Below, in pieces: positions 50,367 through 61,931 of a stretch of 64,000 bases of DNA. This DNA comes from an uncultured Eubacteriales bacterium. GTDB lineage: Bacteria; Bacillota; Clostridia; Lachnospirales; Lachnospiraceae. The position numbers and the translations under genes were made by a program. The stretch covers positions 1 through 64,000 of the forward strand of contig OMVN01000003.1 in the NCBI GenBank assembly GCA_900314525.1, in the 5' to 3' direction. How positions within the stretch are numbered: the first letter of the stretch is position 1; each line of letters starts with the position of its first letter. The notes under the pieces are model-generated. The model saw nothing but the letters and a program-made list of their open reading frames with translations, made no database searches and was not told the origin of the DNA.

Positions 50367-52352
50367 ATGAGCAACGGATTTTTACCAATATGTAAAAAGG
50401 ATATGACGGATGCAGGAATAGAACAGCTGGACTTCGTATATGTGTGTGGAGATGCATACGTAGATCATCCAAGTTTTGGACATGCTGTAATTGCCAGAGT
50501 TTTGGAGTCATTTGGATATACGGTTGGATTTATATGTCAGCCTGATTGGAATGACGATAAAAGTATTGACGAGTATGGCGAGCCAAGACTTGGATTTTTA
50601 GTATCATCAGGAAATATGGACTCTATGGTAAATCATTACACTGTATCTAAAAAACGCAGACATCAGGATGCATACAGCCCTGGTGGAGTTATGGGCAAAC
50701 GTCCTGACTATGCAGTAATAGTGTATTGCAATCTAATCAGAAAGACATATAAGAAAACCCCAATAATAATTGGAGGGTTAGAGGCCAGTTTAAGACGTCT
50801 TGCACATTATGATTACTGGTCAAATAAGGTCAGAAGATCTATACTATTAGATTCAGGTGCAGATATCATTTCATATGGTATGGGGGAAAAAAGTATAGTA
50901 GAAATTGCTGACGGACTGGCCGCAGGAATTGATGTAAAGGATCTTACATATATTGATGGAACAGTATATAAGACAAGAAATAAGGAACTAATAGAAGATG
51001 CTATAAAATTGCCTGATTTTGAAGGAATAAAGTCAGACAAGAGAAAATATGCGGAGAGTTTTGCACTGCAGTACAACAATACAGATCCTTTTTCTGGAAA
51101 GAAAATGTATGAGACATATGACGGAGCTCTTTATGTTGTTGTAAACACTGCAAGTAAGCCACTTACAACTATGGAGATGGATGATGTGTATTCTCTTCCG
51201 TATATGAGAAATTACCATCCATCATACGAAAAAGACGGAGGAATACCTGCAATCAGTGAGATAAAATTTTCTCTAACATCTAACAGAGGATGTTACGGAG
51301 AATGTAATTTCTGCGCACTTACTTTTCATCAGGGAAGAATTGTACAGGTAAGAAGTCATAAAAATATTATTGAGGAAGCAGAGAAATGTATTGAAGATCC
51401 TGATTTTAAAGGATACATACATGATGTAGGAGGACCAACGGCAGAATTTCGAAGACCTGCGTGTGATAAACAGTTAAAATATGGGGCATGTACAAATAAG
51501 AAATGCCTGTATCCAAAACCTTGCAAGAATCTTGTTGTTGATCATAAGGATTATATAGACCTCCTAAGAAAACTCAGGAAAATGCCAAAAGTAAAAAAAG
51601 TATTTGTAAGATCGGGATTCAGATTTGATTATGTTGTGGCAGATAAGGATAAATCATTTTTGAAAGAAATATGCAAGTATCATGTAAGCGGTCAGTTAAG
51701 AGTTGCACCAGAGCACATTTCTGATAATGTATTATCAAAGATGGGTAAGCCAGGTGTTGATGTGTATAACAAATTCTGCAGTGAATTTGAAAAGGTTAAT
51801 AAAGAACTCGATATGAATCAGTTCATTGTGCCATACCTTATGTCTTCCCATCCTGGAAGTACAATAAAGGATGCAATTGCACTGGCAGAGTATTTAAGAA
51901 GTTTAAAATATATGCCTGAGCAGGTTCAGGATTTCTATCCTACGCCAGGAACTGTTTCGACATGTATGTTCTATACAGGGATTGATCCTCTTACAATGAA
52001 TGAAGTATATGTGGAGAGAGATCCTCATAAAAAAGCATTGCAGAGGGCTCTTATACAATACAGAGATCCTAAAAATTATGATCTTGTTAAGGAAGCACTG
52101 CTAATGGAGGGAAGAGATGACCTGATTGGATTTGACAAGCAGTGTCTTATTCCTCCAAGGAAAATGGCTGACAGAAACAAAAAGAATTTTACAGATAAAA
52201 ACAATAAAGGTAATACTAAAAATAATAAGGGCAGAAATAATAAAAACGAAAAAAATAAGAACAATATAAAAAACAATAAAGTGAAAGAGGTCAGAAATAA
52301 TGGAAAACACAACAAAAATAATAGCAGTAGCGGGAAAAGGCGGAGTTGGTAA
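50367..52352 (+). CDS. YgiQ family radical SAM protein
   Basis: 661 residues: N-terminal half (LDFVYVCGDAYVDHPSFGHA, PIIIGGLEASLRRLAHYDYW), radical SAM motif in SNRGCYGECNFCALTFHQGR at about 308-325 (CxxxCxxC), and the YgiQ C-terminal region (PTPGTVSTCMFYTG). The last 60 residues are Lys/Asn-rich repeats. The reaction is unknown. The 3' end overlaps the CooC-like gene by 53 bases, in another frame, so the two are tightly linked. ATG at 50367 with AAAGGA upstream. Confidence 0.9.
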   Translation: MSNGFLPICKKDMTDAGIEQLDFVYVCGDAYVDHPSFGHAVIARVLESFGYTVGFICQPDWNDDKSIDEYGEPRLGFLVSSGNMDSMVNHYTVSKKRRHQDAYSPGGVMGKRPDYAVIVYCNLIRKTYKKTPIIIGGLEASLRRLAHYDYWSNKVRRSILLDSGADIISYGMGEKSIVEIADGLAAGIDVKDLTYIDGTVYKTRNKELIEDAIKLPDFEGIKSDKRKYAESFALQYNNTDPFSGKKMYETYDGALYVVVNTASKPLTTMEMDDVYSLPYMRNYHPSYEKDGGIPAISEIKFSLTSNRGCYGECNFCALTFHQGRIVQVRSHKNIIEEAEKCIEDPDFKGYIHDVGGPTAEFRRPACDKQLKYGACTNKKCLYPKPCKNLVVDHKDYIDLLRKLRKMPKVKKVFVRSGFRFDYVVADKDKSFLKEICKYHVSGQLRVAPEHISDNVLSKMGKPGVDVYNKFCSEFEKVNKELDMNQFIVPYLMSSHPGSTIKDAIALAEYLRSLKYMPEQVQDFYPTPGTVSTCMFYTGIDPLTMNEVYVERDPHKKALQRALIQYRDPKNYDLVKEALLMEGRDDLIGFDKQCLIPPRKMADRNKKNFTDKNNKGNTKNNKGRNNKNEKNKNNIKNNKVKEVRNNGKHNKNNSSSGKRRSW

Positions 52353-53064
52353 GACATCTCTTGCAGGTGCAATTGTAAAGGAACTGGTGAAAAACTTTCC
52401 TGATAAGAAAATACTTGCAATAGATGCAGATCCTGCAGTAGGACTTTCAACAGTATTAAATGTGGAAGTAAAAAAGACTATTGATGATATCAGAAAAGAA
52501 GTAATAAGCACTGTAGAAGATGGAGAATTAAAGTCGGCATTAGAACTTTTAGGAGACGCAAAATATGAAATATTTGATGCTCTTTCAGAACAGGACGGAT
52601 ATGCATTTATAGCAATAGGAAGACCTGAAAGTGCAGGCTGTTACTGTAAAATAAATAGCTATCTTAAAGAAGTAATAACAATGCTGTCGTCCAACTTTGA
52701 TTATGTTGTAATAGATGGTGAGGCAGGCATTGAGCAGATAAACAGGAGAGTTATGGAAAAAGTAACGCACCTTCTTCTGGTAACAGATGCATCAAAAAAA
52801 GGCTGTGAAGTTGTAAAGACAATAAAAAAAGTAGCAGATGAACTGGTTATGTATGAGAAGGTAGGAGTTATAGCAAACAGACTCCCAGACAAATCGGTTA
52901 CAGAATATATGAATCTTGGTGACCTTGAAATTGTATCAGTTATTTCTAATGATGATAAACTGGCAAAATATGATATAATGGGACAAAATATTTTTGAACT
53001 GCCAGATGACTGCGAGATTGTAAAGGGAGCAGAGACTGCACTTAAAAATATAAAAATAATATAA
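52300..53064 (+). CDS. CooC/AcsF-like nickel- or metal-cluster maturation ATPase
   Basis: 254 residues, MinD/ParA-type ATPase with deviant Walker A AGKGGVGKT, IDADPA, a conserved CYCK pair (AGCYCKINSYL, about 107-117) and DGEAGIEQINRRVM. This set is typical of CooC/AcsF proteins that insert nickel into CO dehydrogenase/acetyl-CoA synthase. Here no CODH gene follows; instead dehydratase-type subunits and a CdhC-like protein. The P-loop is encoded in the same DNA as the C-terminal GKRRSW of the YgiQ protein. Confidence 0.85.
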   Translation: MENTTKIIAVAGKGGVGKTSLAGAIVKELVKNFPDKKILAIDADPAVGLSTVLNVEVKKTIDDIRKEVISTVEDGELKSALELLGDAKYEIFDALSEQDGYAFIAIGRPESAGCYCKINSYLKEVITMLSSNFDYVVIDGEAGIEQINRRVMEKVTHLLLVTDASKKGCEVVKTIKKVADELVMYEKVGVIANRLPDKSVTEYMNLGDLEIVSVISNDDKLAKYDIMGQNIFELPDDCEIVKGAETALKNIKII

Positions 53065-53095
53065 CAGATATATAATAAAAAAATGGAGAAGAAAT

Positions 53096-54292
53096 TTGAA
53101 AGATTTAAAACATCTATATTATTTTGAAAAACTTCTAGATGAAGTGAATAATGAACTAGTAAGAGAAGCATGTGATGAGGGAGATAAAGCAATAGGAGGA
53201 GTGTGTTTTCAGATACCAGAACCTCTTATTAATCTTCCAGGAACATTTTCAGTGAGACTCAGAGCTCCAAGAACAGGCTCTATATTTATGGGATCGTATT
53301 ACCTTAGCAGCATGTTATGTGAAGCATGCAGAGCGATTTTAGAGAGAGCTATTGAGGGTGGATATGAATTTCTAGACTGCATAATTGCGCCTGATGCCTG
53401 TGCTCAGATGAACAGATGTGTGGAAAATATAGAGAAACAGAACCTGTGTACAAAAGAGAATTTTTTTGTGTCTTATTCCGATGTTCCAATGAAAAATGAT
53501 GAGACTGCATTGAGACATTATGTAAAACAAATGAAGATTCATGTGTTAGAACCATTGCATGATAAATTCGGAATTGATATTTCGGATGATGCCATAAGAG
53601 AGGCAGTAAAATTACAGAATGAGGTGAGTATGCTGATTTCTGAAATCGGGGATTACAGAAAAGAGGATAATCCAAGGATTACAGGATATGAGTTTGCTGT
53701 GTTGTGCCTTGCATCATATTGCTGTCCTAAAAATAAGATTGTTGATAAATTAAGAGAAACGGCAGAAGAATTGAAATATAGAAAGCCAGATGATAAATCT
53801 TCATATAGAGCAAGAGTTGCACTTATTGGATCAGAAATAGATGATCCGGGATTTATTAAACTGGTTGAGGATGCAGGGGCACTTGTGGTTGCAGACAGAT
53901 TTTGTTTTGGCTCTCTGCCAGGAAGACAGGTTATTGAACTTAATGATGAGGAAGATGCTCTTACACAGGTATGCAGAACTTATCTTGAATGGGGAAAATG
54001 TCCAAGATATATGAATACAGAAAAAATTGTGGAGAGACAGGAATATGCAGACAAGATTGCCAAAGAATATCATGCAGACGGACTAATATACCAGCAGATT
54101 AAATTCTGTGATTACTGGGGATATGAGAGAGCATCTGCTTTCCATATAATGCGTGAAAAATATAATTATCCTGTACTTTCTGTGGACAGACCATATAATT
54201 TAGGTTCATCAGGACAGTTAAGAACAAGGGTCCAGGCTTTTGTTGAAAGTATTGAGATAAAGAAAATACAGAAGAAAGCAGAGGTTGAATAA
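53096..54292 (+). CDS. 2-hydroxyacyl-CoA dehydratase family subunit (HgdB/FldC-like)
   Basis: 398 residues with the family's helical/Cys pattern: MLCEACRAILERAIEGGYEF, CIIAPDACAQMNRCVEN and QQIKFCDYWGYE carry the Cys ligands for a [4Fe-4S] cluster. In known enzymes such a subunit pairs with a partner and is activated by an ATP-driven electron donor. The substrate is unknown. Start is TTG with GGAGAAG five bases upstream. The next gene starts directly after its stop. Confidence 0.85.
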   Translation: MKDLKHLYYFEKLLDEVNNELVREACDEGDKAIGGVCFQIPEPLINLPGTFSVRLRAPRTGSIFMGSYYLSSMLCEACRAILERAIEGGYEFLDCIIAPDACAQMNRCVENIEKQNLCTKENFFVSYSDVPMKNDETALRHYVKQMKIHVLEPLHDKFGIDISDDAIREAVKLQNEVSMLISEIGDYRKEDNPRITGYEFAVLCLASYCCPKNKIVDKLRETAEELKYRKPDDKSSYRARVALIGSEIDDPGFIKLVEDAGALVVADRFCFGSLPGRQVIELNDEEDALTQVCRTYLEWGKCPRYMNTEKIVERQEYADKIAKEYHADGLIYQQIKFCDYWGYERASAFHIMREKYNYPVLSVDRPYNLGSSGQLRTRVQAFVESIEIKKIQKKAEVE

Positions 54293-55831
54293 ATGTCTAA
54301 AAATCTTGGAAGTGAACCACTTGGACGTCTGTATACTGGCAAAAAGCCAAGGAGAAGAAGAGAGTGGAGAGGTCTTAAGGACACATGGTATGATTACAGA
54401 AGATGGCTGTTTTACTGGAAAACTCTTATTAAATTCACATTAAAACCTAATAATGTAAAAGGCTTTTTCAGATACAGGTGGATGATTAATTTTCTTGCTC
54501 TGCCAGATTTTATGGATAGGCATACAGAGGGGATGAGAGATAATCAGCTCAGAATGGCTCATAATGCCCTTGGTCTTATTGTAACTGATATTTGTGGAAT
54601 GCTAGGAACAATATTTAAAGCAGATAAGCGAGTTGGAAATAATGAGAAATTAAACAAAAAGATCGTTTTGTTTGATGAAAATATGATGAGTACACTTATG
54701 GGAGGATTCCCAAATCTTATATGGCTCTCAGCAGAGGTTCCATCAGTATATACAAGCTCAATGATGTCACAAAATGCAATGGAATACTATCTAGATATAA
54801 TACATGAATATGGTGTACCTTCAGATGTATGTCCAATGCCTGCTGCAGAACTTGGAGTTGCACTGGCAGGCGATTTGCCTCAGATTGGCTGTTGTGCAGT
54901 TCAGTGTAATACAACATGCGATGGAAGTCTTATGGGAAACGGAATAGAGGCATCCACTTTTGGAATCCCAACATTTCAGCTGGCTGTACCTATCAGACAC
55001 AGACAGGAGAGTGTACAGGAGTATGCTGCAGAAGAAATTGTTAATGCAATACATTTCATAGAGGAACATACAGGAGAAAAATTTGACTGGGATGCTTTCT
55101 TTGAAAATATGGACAGATTTAACAAAGAAACAAAAGAATTCTTGGAGTGGATGGAAATCTCTAAGACAGAATACCCACAGGTATTAGGAGTTACACTTGC
55201 ACTTTACAGATATGGTGTATACCAGGCTGCAGGTGGAAGAAATCAGGCTTTTCTTGATATGGACAAATGGCTCACTAAAATGGCCACTGACGGATACCAG
55301 AGAAAATTAATGGTAGCAAAAGAACACAGACACAGAGCTATTACCTGGGGAGTTCAGGCCGCATATTATACAGCATTTCCGATATGGCTTATGAATTGCT
55401 GGGGAATTGTACCAGTTCTTGATATGTTAAGTCTTGTATCCACAGAGATGATAGATACACAGGATAAACACCAGGCTATGTTAGATTTAGCATACTTATA
55501 TGAAAATATGATCATGAGAAACAGATCAAATGGCGGATATGAAACTGGTGTAGAGGCACTTTTCAGATACTGTGAACAGTTTAACTGCGATATGATAATA
55601 ATGTATGCTCATATGGGATGTAAATCAATGTCAGGATATCACGGACTTTTTGAGGAAGAGGCAAGAAAACGTGGAATTCATTTTGTTTGGGTAACCCATA
55701 ATCTTATGAGTCCACATGATGGCCCTAGAACTGATATGAGAACTGAAATAAACAGATATATGAGAACAGTCCTAAGAGAAGAACCATTAGATCCAACTTT
55801 AGAAGATTTTGATGATTCTGAAAACTGGTAG
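54293..55831 (+). CDS. 2-hydroxyacyl-CoA dehydratase family subunit (HgdA/FldB-like), long form
   Basis: 512 residues, about 80-100 longer than usual because of a basic N-terminal extension (GRLYTGKKPRRRREWRG). The dehydratase core has CPMPAAELGVAL, QIGCCAVQCNTTCDGSLMGNG, RGIHFVWVTHNLMSPHDGPRT and YAHMGCKSMSG with Cys ligands. Together with the previous subunit it should form the catalytic heterodimer. Its start codon abuts the stop of that gene. Substrate unknown. Confidence 0.83.
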   Translation: MSKNLGSEPLGRLYTGKKPRRRREWRGLKDTWYDYRRWLFYWKTLIKFTLKPNNVKGFFRYRWMINFLALPDFMDRHTEGMRDNQLRMAHNALGLIVTDICGMLGTIFKADKRVGNNEKLNKKIVLFDENMMSTLMGGFPNLIWLSAEVPSVYTSSMMSQNAMEYYLDIIHEYGVPSDVCPMPAAELGVALAGDLPQIGCCAVQCNTTCDGSLMGNGIEASTFGIPTFQLAVPIRHRQESVQEYAAEEIVNAIHFIEEHTGEKFDWDAFFENMDRFNKETKEFLEWMEISKTEYPQVLGVTLALYRYGVYQAAGGRNQAFLDMDKWLTKMATDGYQRKLMVAKEHRHRAITWGVQAAYYTAFPIWLMNCWGIVPVLDMLSLVSTEMIDTQDKHQAMLDLAYLYENMIMRNRSNGGYETGVEALFRYCEQFNCDMIIMYAHMGCKSMSGYHGLFEEEARKRGIHFVWVTHNLMSPHDGPRTDMRTEINRYMRTVLREEPLDPTLEDFDDSENW

Positions 55832-55848
55832 GATGAAAGGAGATTTAA

Positions 55849-56640
55849 ATGAGCAGATATTTTGGCGGATGTGATGCTGGAAGTACATATACAAAATGCG
55901 TGATAATTGATGAAAATGGAAAAATAGTATCAAGCGTAATTAATAAATCAAGAATTAACCCAGTGCTTAGTGCGAAAGAGTCTTTGGAAAACGCAGTGAA
56001 GCAGGTAGATGGATTAGATAAAATAGAGGACCTTACATATCTTGTAGGTACTGGATATGGCAGAAATAAAGTACCATTTGCTGATGAAAATATATCGGAA
56101 ATAAGCTGTCATGCCATGGGAGTGCATGTCACTGACCCTTCAATAAAAGCAATTATTGATATTGGTGGTCAGGATGTTAAAGGAATAGCAATAGACACAG
56201 ATGGCACAGTTCTTAATTTTGCAATGAATGATAAATGTGCAGCAGGAACTGGAAGATTTTTTGAATCAATGGCAAGGGCATTTGAGATGTCTCTTGATGA
56301 ATTTTCAAATCTGGCTCTTAAGGCCAAAAATGTAATTCCAATAACATCACAGTGTGCAGTATTTACTGAAAGTGAAGTGATTTCACTTGTAGGTGAGGGA
56401 AAACCAATGGATGAAATAGCAGCAGGTATTGAATTGTCAGTTGCAAAGAGATGTTTTGTAATGGCCAAAAAGGCTGGAGTGACAGACAACGTTACACTTA
56501 CAGGAGGCTGTGCTAAAAATAGTGGTCTTAAGAAGGCAATTGAAAAAGTTCTTAAAATAAAAGTGATTGATTTATCAACTGACCCTCAGCTTATGGGGGC
56601 TTTAGGAGCAGCAGAATACGCAAGACAGAAAGGAATGTAA
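55849..56640 (+). CDS. Acyl-CoA dehydratase activator ATPase (HgdC/BadF/BadG-like)
   Basis: 263 residues, actin-fold ATPase: GGCDAGSTYTKCVIIDENG, IDIGGQDVKGIAI, NDKCAAGTGRFFE and TLTGGCAKNSGL. The two Cys (KCAAGTG; GGCAKN) provide the [4Fe-4S] cluster shared by a homodimer. It pumps one electron into the dehydratase dimer at ATP cost. GAAAGGAG precedes the ATG. Completes the dehydratase trio. Confidence 0.93.
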   Translation: MSRYFGGCDAGSTYTKCVIIDENGKIVSSVINKSRINPVLSAKESLENAVKQVDGLDKIEDLTYLVGTGYGRNKVPFADENISEISCHAMGVHVTDPSIKAIIDIGGQDVKGIAIDTDGTVLNFAMNDKCAAGTGRFFESMARAFEMSLDEFSNLALKAKNVIPITSQCAVFTESEVISLVGEGKPMDEIAAGIELSVAKRCFVMAKKAGVTDNVTLTGGCAKNSGLKKAIEKVLKIKVIDLSTDPQLMGALGAAEYARQKGM

Positions 56641-56641
56641 T

Positions 56642-56824
56642 ATGCTAATTTTGAAAATAATTGGAATAATAGTTATTATATTTATTGTATTATTTATTCT
56701 GAGTTTATTTATATATTTCTTTAATCTTGATATGAAGATAGCGTCAAAGCTTATAAAACCACTTACAAAATATTACGATCATTCAAAGGCAAAAAGAGAG
56801 AAAAAGAATGAAAATATTCGATAA
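56642..56824 (+). CDS. Small single-span membrane protein
   Basis: 60 residues: one strong hydrophobic helix (about 2-29, Ile-rich) and a basic C-terminal tail (KLIKPLTKYYDHSKAKREKK). No family recognised. The ATG lies one base after the activator's stop codon; its end overlaps the next gene by 17 bases, so it is probably translated as part of the cluster. Might anchor or regulate the complex; inference only. Confidence 0.55.
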   Translation: MLILKIIGIIVIIFIVLFILSLFIYFFNLDMKIASKLIKPLTKYYDHSKAKREKKNENIR

Positions 56825-57554
56825 TGAAATAAAAAAAGTTTATGAATTATTAGAAAGTCTTCAGAGTAAAAATAGTAAATACGAAGCAAACAAAGATATT
56901 CTGACAGAGAAAGAGCAGATGATACTTAAATGGGATATGATATACGAACTAGGTGGAAGTGAGAAAAATGCCATCTGCAATGTCATTGTCACAGAAGATG
57001 AGACACTTGTGCCACAAAATGAGATTTGCCTGTATGGTCCGGATTTAAAAGAAATAGAAGAGGATACAGATTATGCAAAGATTCTGATAGTAAGATTCAG
57101 AGAAGGTTATATAAGTAAACTTGATGAGAAAAAAATCTATACTCTAATCAGAAAAATATCATACCTGAGATATAAAGTTCATATGTGTGGATTTATGCCA
57201 AGAATTTCTACCAGGAGAGACAGAGAGCCTGTGAGAGTTGATAAAAATTCTGTTAGCACAGGATTGTCTATTTTTGATGCGGGAAATTCGTACATAAAAA
57301 GATACTTGGAGCAGGATGGAGTTGTGGCTGTAAAGACAGTTTTTGTCACGGACAAAAGGGCAGATTATAAAAATTTAAAAAAAATATCAGATGAATGTGA
57401 AAACATTACGGCATCACTCGATCATATATTAAGCGGAATGGTAATGGATTGCAGCACATGTAATTTAAAAGAGGTCTGTGATGAGGTAGATGATTTAAGA
57501 AGTATTCACAGAAAAATTTCAGACAATACAGGTGATAATAATGCTGAAAGATAA
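56808..57554 (+). CDS. CdhC/acetyl-CoA synthase-like domain protein (tentative)
   Basis: 248 residues. N-terminal helix, then LKWDMIYELGGSEKNAICNV, EICLYGPDLKEIEE, ILIVRFREGY, and a C-terminal CSTCNLKEVCDEVDDL with three Cys. The order and the C-terminal CxxCxxxxxC resemble proteins I recall as related to the acetyl-CoA synthase beta subunit (CdhC family); I could not verify it. It is much shorter than true ACS. The linked CooC-like ATPase supports a nickel or Fe-S role. Overlaps its neighbours on both sides. Confidence 0.5.
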   Translation: MKIFDNEIKKVYELLESLQSKNSKYEANKDILTEKEQMILKWDMIYELGGSEKNAICNVIVTEDETLVPQNEICLYGPDLKEIEEDTDYAKILIVRFREGYISKLDEKKIYTLIRKISYLRYKVHMCGFMPRISTRRDREPVRVDKNSVSTGLSIFDAGNSYIKRYLEQDGVVAVKTVFVTDKRADYKNLKKISDECENITASLDHILSGMVMDCSTCNLKEVCDEVDDLRSIHRKISDNTGDNNAER

Positions 57555-58170
57555 AGACATAAGGGAACCACTATTTAATTTTCTTGAGGACAGATATGGG
57601 AAAATCAGAATTTTTGAGGAAAAAAATATTGGCAGATCAAGAGCAGATGTTATAATGATTACGGATGCACTGATATATGGTATTGAGATAAAAAGTGATG
57701 CAGATACATATCAGAGGCTTCAGACGCAGATACAAGATTATGATTTATTTGCAGATATAAACTTTCTTGTTGCAGGAAGTACTCATGGAGAACATATAAA
57801 AGAGCACGTTCCAGAACACTGGGGGATAATCACGGTAGAATCCACAGAGGATGGTGCGGATTTTTATATTTTAAGAGAACCACAGTTAAACCCCAATGCA
57901 CTGATAAAAAATCAGATGGCATTTCTATGGAGACCTGAACTTGCTCATATTCAGGAATTAAACGAAATGCATAAGTATGCAAATAAAAGCAAGGCGTTTG
58001 TAACTGAAAAAATCATAGAAACTGTAGATGAGACTGTCTTAAAGAAACAGATAACCGATGAACTGTTTGAGAGGGACTATACAACAGTTTTTGAAAAGAT
58101 TAATGAGTACAGAAAAGAACATAATATGAAACCTAGAAGAAAGAAGAAATATAAGAAAAGAAAGAAATAG
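57541..58170 (+). CDS. sce7726-like, PD-(D/E)xK-type protein
   Basis: About 209 residues. The N-terminal half has the pattern of a PD-(D/E)xK nuclease fold: RADVIMITDALIYGIEIKSDAD with Asp and E-x-K, then QIQDYDLFADINFLVAG. The C-terminal tail is very basic (PRRKKKYKKRKK), suggesting nucleic acid binding. The sce7726 family is the closest I can name. The ATG at 57541 has GGTGAT upstream. Overlaps the CdhC-like gene by 14 bases; functional link unknown. Confidence 0.68.
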   Translation: MLKDKDIREPLFNFLEDRYGKIRIFEEKNIGRSRADVIMITDALIYGIEIKSDADTYQRLQTQIQDYDLFADINFLVAGSTHGEHIKEHVPEHWGIITVESTEDGADFYILREPQLNPNALIKNQMAFLWRPELAHIQELNEMHKYANKSKAFVTEKIIETVDETVLKKQITDELFERDYTTVFEKINEYRKEHNMKPRRKKKYKKRKK

Positions 58171-61025: not shown

Positions 61026-61931
61026 ATGAAAGAAAGAGAAAAATTTGGTTCAAGACTAGGATTTATATTAGTATCTGCAGGATGTGCAGTAGGTCTTGGA
61101 AATGTGTGGAAATTCCCATATGTGTGCGGTAAAAACGGTGGAGCAATTTTTATTCTTATTTATCTTGCGTTCCTTATCGTTATGGGCTATCCGATAATGG
61201 TATCAGAGTTTTCAGTTGGAAGAGCCAGCAGATCAAGTTGTGCAACTTCATTTAAGGTGCTTGAAAAAGAAGGCACTCACTGGCACAATTATGGTTACTT
61301 TGGAATGTTGGGCAATTACATGCTTATGATGTTCTGGGCAGTAATAGCAATTATTGCAGCGTTTGTTATCTGTTAATTTGGTGTTCAAAAAGGTGTTGAG
61401 AAGATTACAAAAATAATGATGGTGTGTCTATTGCTACTGATCGCTGTTCTTGCAATTCATTCCCTAACACTTAAAGGAGCAATGAAAGGTGTAAGATTTT
61501 ATCTTGTGCCTAATGTAGATAATATCAAAGATGCGGGTATTGTTAATGTTGTATTTGAAGCAATGAAACAGGCATTTTTCACACTAAGTATTGGTATTGG
61601 AGCAATGGCTATCTTCGGAAGCTATATTGATAAAGACAGATCTCTTTCAGGTGAGTCTGTAAGCATAATTGCAATCGACACATTTGTTGCACTTATGGCG
61701 GGACTTATTATTATACCTGCATGTTTTGCATATAATATTGAGCCTGGTCAGGGACCAAGTCTTATATTTATTAAATTACCAACTGTATTTAACCAAATGG
61801 CACTCGGAAAACTCTGGAGCATATTATTCTTCGTGTTTATGTCATTTGCAGCAATGTTGTCCTTGGAAAAGGAAAAGATAATAGGCAGTAATCAGAATAT
61901 AATTAATTTACTATACCGGTTATTCATTTAA
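61026..61931 (+). pseudogene. Decayed NSS/SNF sodium-dependent transporter
   Basis: Starts well (FGSRLGFILVSAGCAVGLGN, VWKFPYVCGKNGG) but between FGMLGNYMLMMF and WAVIAIIAAF the region of helix 4 to 5 is missing (about 40-50 residues). A TAA at 61374-61376 interrupts the frame directly before FGVQKGVEKITKI; the same frame then continues with KGVRFYLVPNVD, AFFTLSIGIGAM and GPSLIFIKLP. It stops after FVFMSFAAMLSLEKEK, so roughly the last third is lost and the tail runs into a terminator. Non-functional. Confidence 0.87.

Follow-up and report, generated by a model that had tools for sequence, protein, structure and literature searches.

Gene content of the locus

We analyzed a stretch of 64,000 nucleotides (contig OMVN01000003.1, hereafter the window) from an uncultured Eubacteriales bacterium of the Lachnospiraceae, whose assembly of 2.36 Mb in 72 contigs is 99.7% complete. 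Open reading frame (ORF) calls in the window revealed six intact ORFs in tight succession on the plus strand, which encode a CooC-like ATPase, a short (HgdS) and a long (HgdL) HGD-D subunit, an activase (HgdC), a one-span membrane peptide and a CdhC-like protein:

52300..53064, plus strand: CooC-like P-loop ATPase, 254 aa, with a GKGGVGKT motif and C114-x-C116
53096..54292, plus strand: HgdS, short HGD-D subunit (PF06050), 398 aa, TTG start, predicted double-cubane [8Fe-9S] cluster
54293..55831, plus strand: HgdL, long HGD-D subunit, 512 aa, predicted catalytic [4Fe-4S] cluster, basic aromatic N-terminal extension
54293..54529, plus strand: N-terminal extension of HgdL, residues 1-79, delimited by AlphaFold2 (AF2) helices, alignment starts and charge count
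55849..56640, plus strand: HgdC, ASKHA-type activase (TIGR00241), 263 aa
56642..56824, plus strand: one-span membrane peptide, 60 aa, recognized by KD19 hydrophobicity
56808..57554, plus strand: CdhC-like protein, 248 aa, acetyl-CoA synthase (ACS) middle domain (PF03598) and a C215-x2-C-x5-C motif

The successive gaps measure 31, 0, 17 and 1 bases, and the peptide and CdhC-like genes overlap by 17 bases; the ORF calls and domain matches thus bear out the six packed genes, with overlaps or tiny gaps, of the first-pass annotation. The first 53 bases of the cooC-like gene (52300-52352) overlap the end of ygiQ, whose product ends in a low-complexity tail rich in lysine and asparagine. It had also been claimed that no CoA-transferase, acyl-CoA dehydrogenase, electron-transfer flavoprotein (Etf) or carbon monoxide dehydrogenase (CODH) is nearby. 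For CODH this extends to the whole window genome, a search of which gave no match; the other three are missing among the neighboring ORFs, where alone they were judged, no genome search being made. The genome search found no further HGD-D or PF03598 match elsewhere in the window genome.

The two subunits, the activase and the membrane peptide

HgdS matches PF06050 (HGD-D) with 287 bits, has BzdN as its best match in the Protein Data Bank (PDB; 7e-35), and keeps in its relatives an MKDL-type start, encoded here from TTG. Its cysteines C37, C75, C102, C270, C302 and C338 are each present in 98 of 98 distinct sequences and pair residue for residue, in the alignment, with BzdN Cys36, Cys73, Cys100, Cys263, Cys293 and Cys327, the ligands named in PMC11971306. 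According to the same source, BzdN and the double-cubane cluster protein (DCCP) share this six-cysteine double-cubane site, whereas the 2-hydroxyacyl-CoA dehydratases (HAD) have lost that cluster (PMC11971306). Judged from its sequence, HgdS carries the BzdN/DCCP-type ligand set, and the cluster that it holds would be an [8Fe-9S] double cubane. Since all HgdS sequences keep the six cysteines, HgdS does not appear HAD-like by the cluster criterion. The curated family models score the pair far under their cut-offs: HgdS reaches 104.2, 64.8 and 16.3 bits with the benzoyl-CoA reductase (BCR) models TIGR03190, TIGR02263 and TIGR02260 (cut-offs 453.8, 421.15 and 486.55), HgdS and HgdL reach 143.3 and 38.2 bits with the DCCP model NF040772 (cut-off 350), and the HadB and HadC models give the cluster subunits 26.4 and 85.4 bits (cut-offs 750 and 700). 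The first-pass label "radical-dehydratase-type" was therefore too narrow.

HgdL matches HGD-D with 134 bits. Its C180 and C209 occur in 109 of 109 sequences and its C443 in 108; all three align with cysteine residues in DCCP and MbdO, and two of them, C180 and C443, also with BzdO Cys95 and Cys380. A second comparison of HgdL brought no family other than HAD, BCR and DCCP to prominence. The basic extension reported earlier on one subunit was confirmed: residues 1-60 hold 17 K/R versus 4 D/E, the AF2 model places helices at 28-49, 52-60 and 62-76, and the alignment starts at residue 80 with BzdO and at residue 45 with DCCP.

HgdC belongs to the BcrAD_BadFG family (TIGR00241, 228 bits versus a cut-off of 125), with MbdQ, the HAD activator and HgdC as best PDB matches and with C130 and C169 in 68 of 68 activase sequences. 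It is the single activase gene among the cluster ORFs, and the protein is therefore probably homodimeric. The one-span peptide, to which neither Pfam nor NCBIfam assigns a family, has a KD19 maximum of 3.55 (19-residue window), and 57 of the 58 ORFs grouped with it reach KD19 values of at least 1.6. It trails HgdL even at loci where the search for CooC, activase and CdhC-like genes was negative.

The CooC-like ATPase and the CdhC-like protein

The domain search assigned the CooC-like protein to the MinD/ArsA group of P-loop ATPases. Its best PDB match is CooC itself (3kje, 3.5e-14), with the CYC aligned, and the CxC is found in 67 of 67 distinct sequences, the deviant Walker A motif GKGG.GKT in 66. 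The CdhC-like protein passes the PF03598 cut-off (31.6 versus 24 bits) and has the fold of the ACS middle domain; its C-x2-C-x5-C motif is followed by a histidine in 43 of 45 sequences, and the protein ends shortly afterwards. By comparison, the ACS ORFs of more than 600 aa have C-x2-C-x8-C-x9-C together with a CGC motif in 13 of 13 cases. The CdhC-like protein thus differs from ACS/CdhC in having neither the N-terminal domain nor the CGC nickel motif, in a third cysteine that follows after 5 rather than 8 residues, and in the histidine that stands instead of the fourth cysteine. The CdhC-like identity proposed earlier is accordingly correct for the middle domain, but the protein is not a synthase. 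A genuine CODH/ACS was likewise ruled out by the negative CODH search, the single PF03598 match and the missing CGC motif. One family member (L105:6263-6976) scores 20.3 bits with PF03598, under the cut-off, so the family may be under-annotated; an initial contig scan with the CdhC-like protein as sole query found no relative.

Conservation and modularity of the cluster

Five fetched relatives each have all six genes, in the order of the window in four and rearranged in one. HgdL was found in 31 of 397 family genomes at E values of 1e-43 or better, a threshold set after seeing the data (the next match lies at 1.7e-18), and 32 further genomes gave partial matches (1.7e-18 to 4.5e-11, 21-29% identity). 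The CdhC-like protein occurs in 30 of the 397 genomes, all of them among the HgdL genomes (30/31; Fisher 2.8e-44, uncorrected for relatedness), once four matches with frames of 718-726 aa are set aside as ACS by length alone, a choice also made after seeing the data. The sole HgdL genome without a CdhC-like match is 87% complete.

Gene neighborhoods were studied in 119 loci, in which some contigs are counted twice, whereas duplicates were removed for the residue counts and for a set of 70 distinct HgdL genes flanked by at least 6 kb of sequence on either side. In this second set neighbors were taken within 6.5 kb, with simple ORF calling that makes the counts of genes present lower bounds. The HgdL tree served to arrange the neighbors and to remove near-duplicates; two weak HgdL matches (L078 and L079) were excluded from both the tree and the 70-gene set. 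HgdS lies near 66 of the 70 HgdL genes, and HgdS, CooC, activase and the CdhC-like gene together lie near 42, on the same strand in all 42; none of CooC, activase and the CdhC-like gene was found near 16. The synteny with the ATPase and CdhC-like genes, on which the first-pass annotation had staked its reading, held in many genera. A scan of named genomes gave at least 503 relatives among 596 candidate stretches. The titles of 80 retained relatives name Lachnospiraceae, Oscillospiraceae or Ruminococcaceae, Erysipelotrichaceae-type genera and Spirochaetes, and indicate guts and rumens for the most part; rumen Pseudobutyrivibrio and Butyrivibrio carry the cluster. Among the named matches listed, the closest HgdL proteins are those of an uncultured Clostridiales bacterium (88%), Eubacterium sp. 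AF22-9 (84%) and Lachnospira sp. (82%).

Within the window genus, the CdhC-like gene is accessory, because it is full-length in only 2 of 10 genomes, with a fragment in a third. A sixth fetched locus, from this genus (L016, G001:C19), holds a CdhC-like C-terminal fragment with an internal stop, and the other cluster genes were not found in its 18 kb. When an empty site was sought in six members of the genus by way of ygiQ, this flank was recovered but the opposite one was not.

The cluster can also be split. In genome G385, cooC, hgdC, the membrane peptide gene and cdhC stand together on L189 (G385:C14), where HgdS-HgdL was not found in the 15 kb fetched, and HgdS-HgdL lies on a separate contig (L047) without cooC, hgdC, peptide and cdhC. 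In L015 and L068, cooC-hgdC-cdhC precedes HgdS-HgdL. Moreover, several genomes combine two or three HgdL copies with a single full CdhC-like gene (the CdhC-like match is split, or joined by a fragment, in some fragmented assemblies). From these split loci and copy numbers, CooC and the CdhC-like protein, usually with the activase, look like helpers able to serve several catalytic pairs.

Three loci (L069, L070 and L071, of G114, G339 and G284) have two diverged HgdS-HgdL pairs and one CooC. Their HgdL ORFs reach in some cases about 590 aa, and a BaiCD-like reductase of the old yellow enzyme (OYE) type lies nearby. The most distant relative, L077 (G327; 27% identity in HgdL, 34% in HgdS), retains activase, cooC, cdhC and a CooT-like ORF, and possibly links the cluster to other HGD-D groups.

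Neighboring genes

Genes of nickel-type maturation and of C=C reduction recur beside the cluster. A CooT-like ORF is present in 10 of the 119 loci, with a small His-rich protein beside it in 9; two CooT proteins score 62.2 and 60.8 bits with PF10133 (cut-off 27) and have no NCBIfam match. An IsrA-like oxidoreductase occurs in 34 of the loci, HypA in 23 (over the Pfam cut-off, under that of TIGR00100) and HypB in 4 (over the TIGR00073 cut-off). Near the 70 HgdL genes we counted 22 IsrA-like, 16 HypA and 5 OYE-type genes. The IsrA-like label derives from length, FAD and FeS domains and HypA/HypB neighbors rather than from comparison with the IsrA sequence; the proteins were counted at 700 bits or more, a value set after seeing the data, and one copy is split over two ORFs. 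The other recurring neighbors are for the most part members of broad families, among them sensor kinases at 21 loci and ABC ATPases at 15, and most neighbors lack a family annotation.

In 26 cluster genomes, HypA passes its cut-off in 19, HypD in 6 and CODH in 5, and a full-length IsrA-like protein is present in 18. The HypA genomes are these 18 plus one with HypD, which assigns HypA to the IsrA-like protein; a pairing of HypA with IsrA is proposed by Kronen et al. (PMC10134865). Nickel delivery to a [NiFe]-hydrogenase was ruled out for the window genome, where HypD has no match.

At the downstream edge of the cluster, a gene of the sce7726 family (57541-58170; NF033832, 164.6 bits) overlaps the end of the CdhC-like gene. 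It adjoins the CdhC-like gene in L011 too, and tblastn was negative for it in L012-L016. Further on, the second of two adjacent transporter ORFs, which we take to be of the sodium:neurotransmitter type, is split in two (61026-61376 and 61416-61931), and its counterpart in L011 is one frame of 495 aa (L011:1347-2834).

Discussion

The cluster resembles several known systems in part. Like class I BCR of the BZD type (BzdNO with BzdPQ), it combines a two-subunit reductase with an ATP-driven activase, and a predicted [8Fe-9S] cluster in the short subunit with a three-cysteine site in the long one; it differs in one visible activase gene instead of two, the N-terminal extension of about 80 residues, the membrane peptide, the CooC and CdhC-like partners and the low TIGR03190 score. 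With DCCP and its reductase (DCCP-R) it shares the double-cubane ligand set in HgdS, the single activase and a similar fold, but DCCP is described as a homodimer with a double cubane per monomer (PMC11971306), whereas the cluster encodes two different subunits side by side, both under the DCCP cut-off. HadBC with its activator, the (R)-2-hydroxyisocaproyl-CoA dehydratase, is similar in superfamily, fold and single activase gene, and different in lacking the double cubane (PMC11971306); the cluster subunits score under the HAD cut-offs, and no CoA-transferase was seen among the ORFs around the cluster. The isr operon of Acetobacterium wieringae recalls the IsrA-like, HypA and few HypB genes beside the cluster in some relatives; its content, as given in PMC10134865, is an oxidoreductase, two HypA, HypB and a ferredoxin, without HGD-D, activase, CooC or CdhC-like genes. 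Judged by titles and abstract starts, literature searches in open-licence PubMed Central (PMC) brought up no paper on the combination; the main-text portions covered of PMC13056359 do not contain "dehydratase", "double-cubane" or "HypA", nor those of PMC7000372 "cdhC" or "2-hydroxyglutaryl". The parts belong to known families; novelty, within the literature searched, lies in how they are assembled, in the ACS-derived partner and in the membrane peptide.

The computation establishes to which families the proteins belong, which candidate ligand residues are conserved, and the fold, synteny and co-occurrence; from these we infer cluster types, electron path, nickel, membrane binding and substrate class. 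We consider it likely that the cluster encodes a reductase. HgdC would drive low-potential electrons into the HgdS-HgdL pair by ATP hydrolysis, HgdS would store them on its [8Fe-9S] double cubane, and HgdL would reduce the substrate at its three-cysteine [4Fe-4S] cluster. The extension of HgdL and the one-span peptide may hold the enzyme at the membrane, an attachment that we favor with some confidence and that would indicate a hydrophobic substrate. A separable activation module, made up of CooC and the CdhC-like protein and usually joined by HgdC, could supply several HgdS-HgdL pairs from one genome copy: CooC would probably deliver a metal, and the CdhC-like protein would bear or hand on a cysteine-bound cluster derived from the ACS A-cluster. 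Nickel is the most likely metal, by a slight preference over its contrary. The adjacency of two unrelated C=C reductase families (IsrA-like and OYE-type) in some relatives makes a conjugated or aromatic compound the best candidate substrate, although we advance this class tentatively, and these reductases might complete the reduction of the conjugated product. The first-pass annotation had joined ATP-driven low-potential reduction with nickel-type maturation; our results support this junction, with nickel and substrate as its conjectural part. The whole model, a new, helper-served and membrane-held variant of the ATP-dependent reductases of the BCR I/HAD superfamily, has in our judgment an even chance of being right. 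Its most specific form, a nickel-dependent BCR-like system in which CooC, joined in some relatives by CooT, the His-rich protein or HypA/HypB, loads nickel on the CdhC-like protein as scaffold or redox partner of a membrane-bound double-cubane reductase, appears doubtful.

Several observations weigh against this model. Arg53 is the only one of the four charged residues surrounding the distal subcluster of BzdN to have, by eye, a conserved counterpart in HgdS. HgdL C209 pairs with BzdO Cys129, one residue past the ligand Cys128, the alignment segment holding C443 lacks significance by itself, and M182 occupies the place of BzdO Tyr97; further common cysteines (C369 in 108/109, C201 in 99/109, C205 in 93/109) mean that the HgdL cluster could differ from the one assumed. 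In the CdhC-like protein the CGC motif of ACS was not found, the local profile alignment with ACS ends ahead of the cysteines, and the cysteine region is the weakest part of the structural model (pLDDT 54-67). The protein is also the least conserved of the five larger ones in 24 of 24 loci, which is unusual for a catalytic part. CooC-1 binds zinc too, and nickel binding is not demonstrated for all CooC proteins (PMC6006190). Because HypA tracks the IsrA-like protein, it is weakened as nickel evidence for the cluster, for which CooC, CooT and the ACS-derived domain remain; in the window genome, where HypA, HypD and full-length IsrA-like searches gave no match, it is CooC and the CdhC-like protein that argue for a metal. 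Nor is the module strict: L066 has HgdS-HgdL-activase-peptide, and neither CooC nor the CdhC-like protein has a match in its 19 kb; the short contigs L142 and L148 are similar, and L118 has CooC and CdhC-like genes and no activase match, so that the activase and CooC are not strictly coupled.

Other explanations were considered. The roles could be reversed, with the CdhC-like protein, or a protein encoded elsewhere, as the real enzyme or cofactor carrier, whose nickel or other metal center HgdS-HgdL-HgdC would reduce. Nickel centers suit low-potential reduction, the CdhC-like protein was found in HgdL genomes only among the 397, and in G385 it accompanies CooC and the activase apart from HgdS-HgdL; yet one CdhC-like copy for diverged HgdS-HgdL pairs fits several substrates better than several reductants, and the CdhC-like protein diverges fastest, so that we regard this reversal as improbable. 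We think no better of a scheme without nickel, in which CooC would act on zinc or an iron-sulfur cluster and the CdhC-like protein would serve the activase as a domain for electron transfer or assembly. It would explain why the A-cluster motif survives only in its cubane-like part and why no CooT or Hyp gene adjoins the cluster in most loci, the window's included, but less readily the invariant metal-binding CxC of CooC and the recurrence of CooT with its His-rich partner, HypA and HypB beside the cluster in some lineages.

An ordinary 2-hydroxyacyl-CoA dehydratase with its CoA-transferase and other pathway genes elsewhere in the genome seems very unlikely, given the six-cysteine site of HgdS, the distance from the HadB and HadC cut-offs and the operon that the subunits share with CooC and CdhC-like genes. 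On the same three grounds an amino-acid dehydratase operon was ruled out, in agreement with the earlier statement that the cluster does not fit known amino acid dehydration operons. Equally remote, in our estimate, is a lipid-modifying reductase with membrane lipids or their unsaturated chains as substrate. The anaerobic plasmalogen synthase PlsA, itself a member of the BCR/HAD superfamily, offers a model for such an activity, with which the membrane peptide, the basic, aromatic extension of HgdL and the presence of the system in rumen Pseudobutyrivibrio and Butyrivibrio would agree; but no lipid-metabolism gene was recognized among the recurring neighbors, sparsely annotated as these are.

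To conclude, if the model of a helper-served, membrane-held reductase is true, a further widespread group of double-cubane reductases exists in gut and rumen bacteria and is accompanied by a maturation module known from CO metabolism; most of the genomes tested (21/26) have no CODH over the cut-off. This raises the questions of whether [8Fe-9S] reductases act beyond aromatic CoA esters and whether a truncated ACS domain still holds a nickel-iron-sulfur center, and it gives context to CooC, CooT and small CdhC annotations in CODH-free genomes. Should nickel be involved, the cluster would represent a new nickel enzyme system that joins ACS ancestry to ATP-driven hydrogenation or dearomatization in gut anaerobes.

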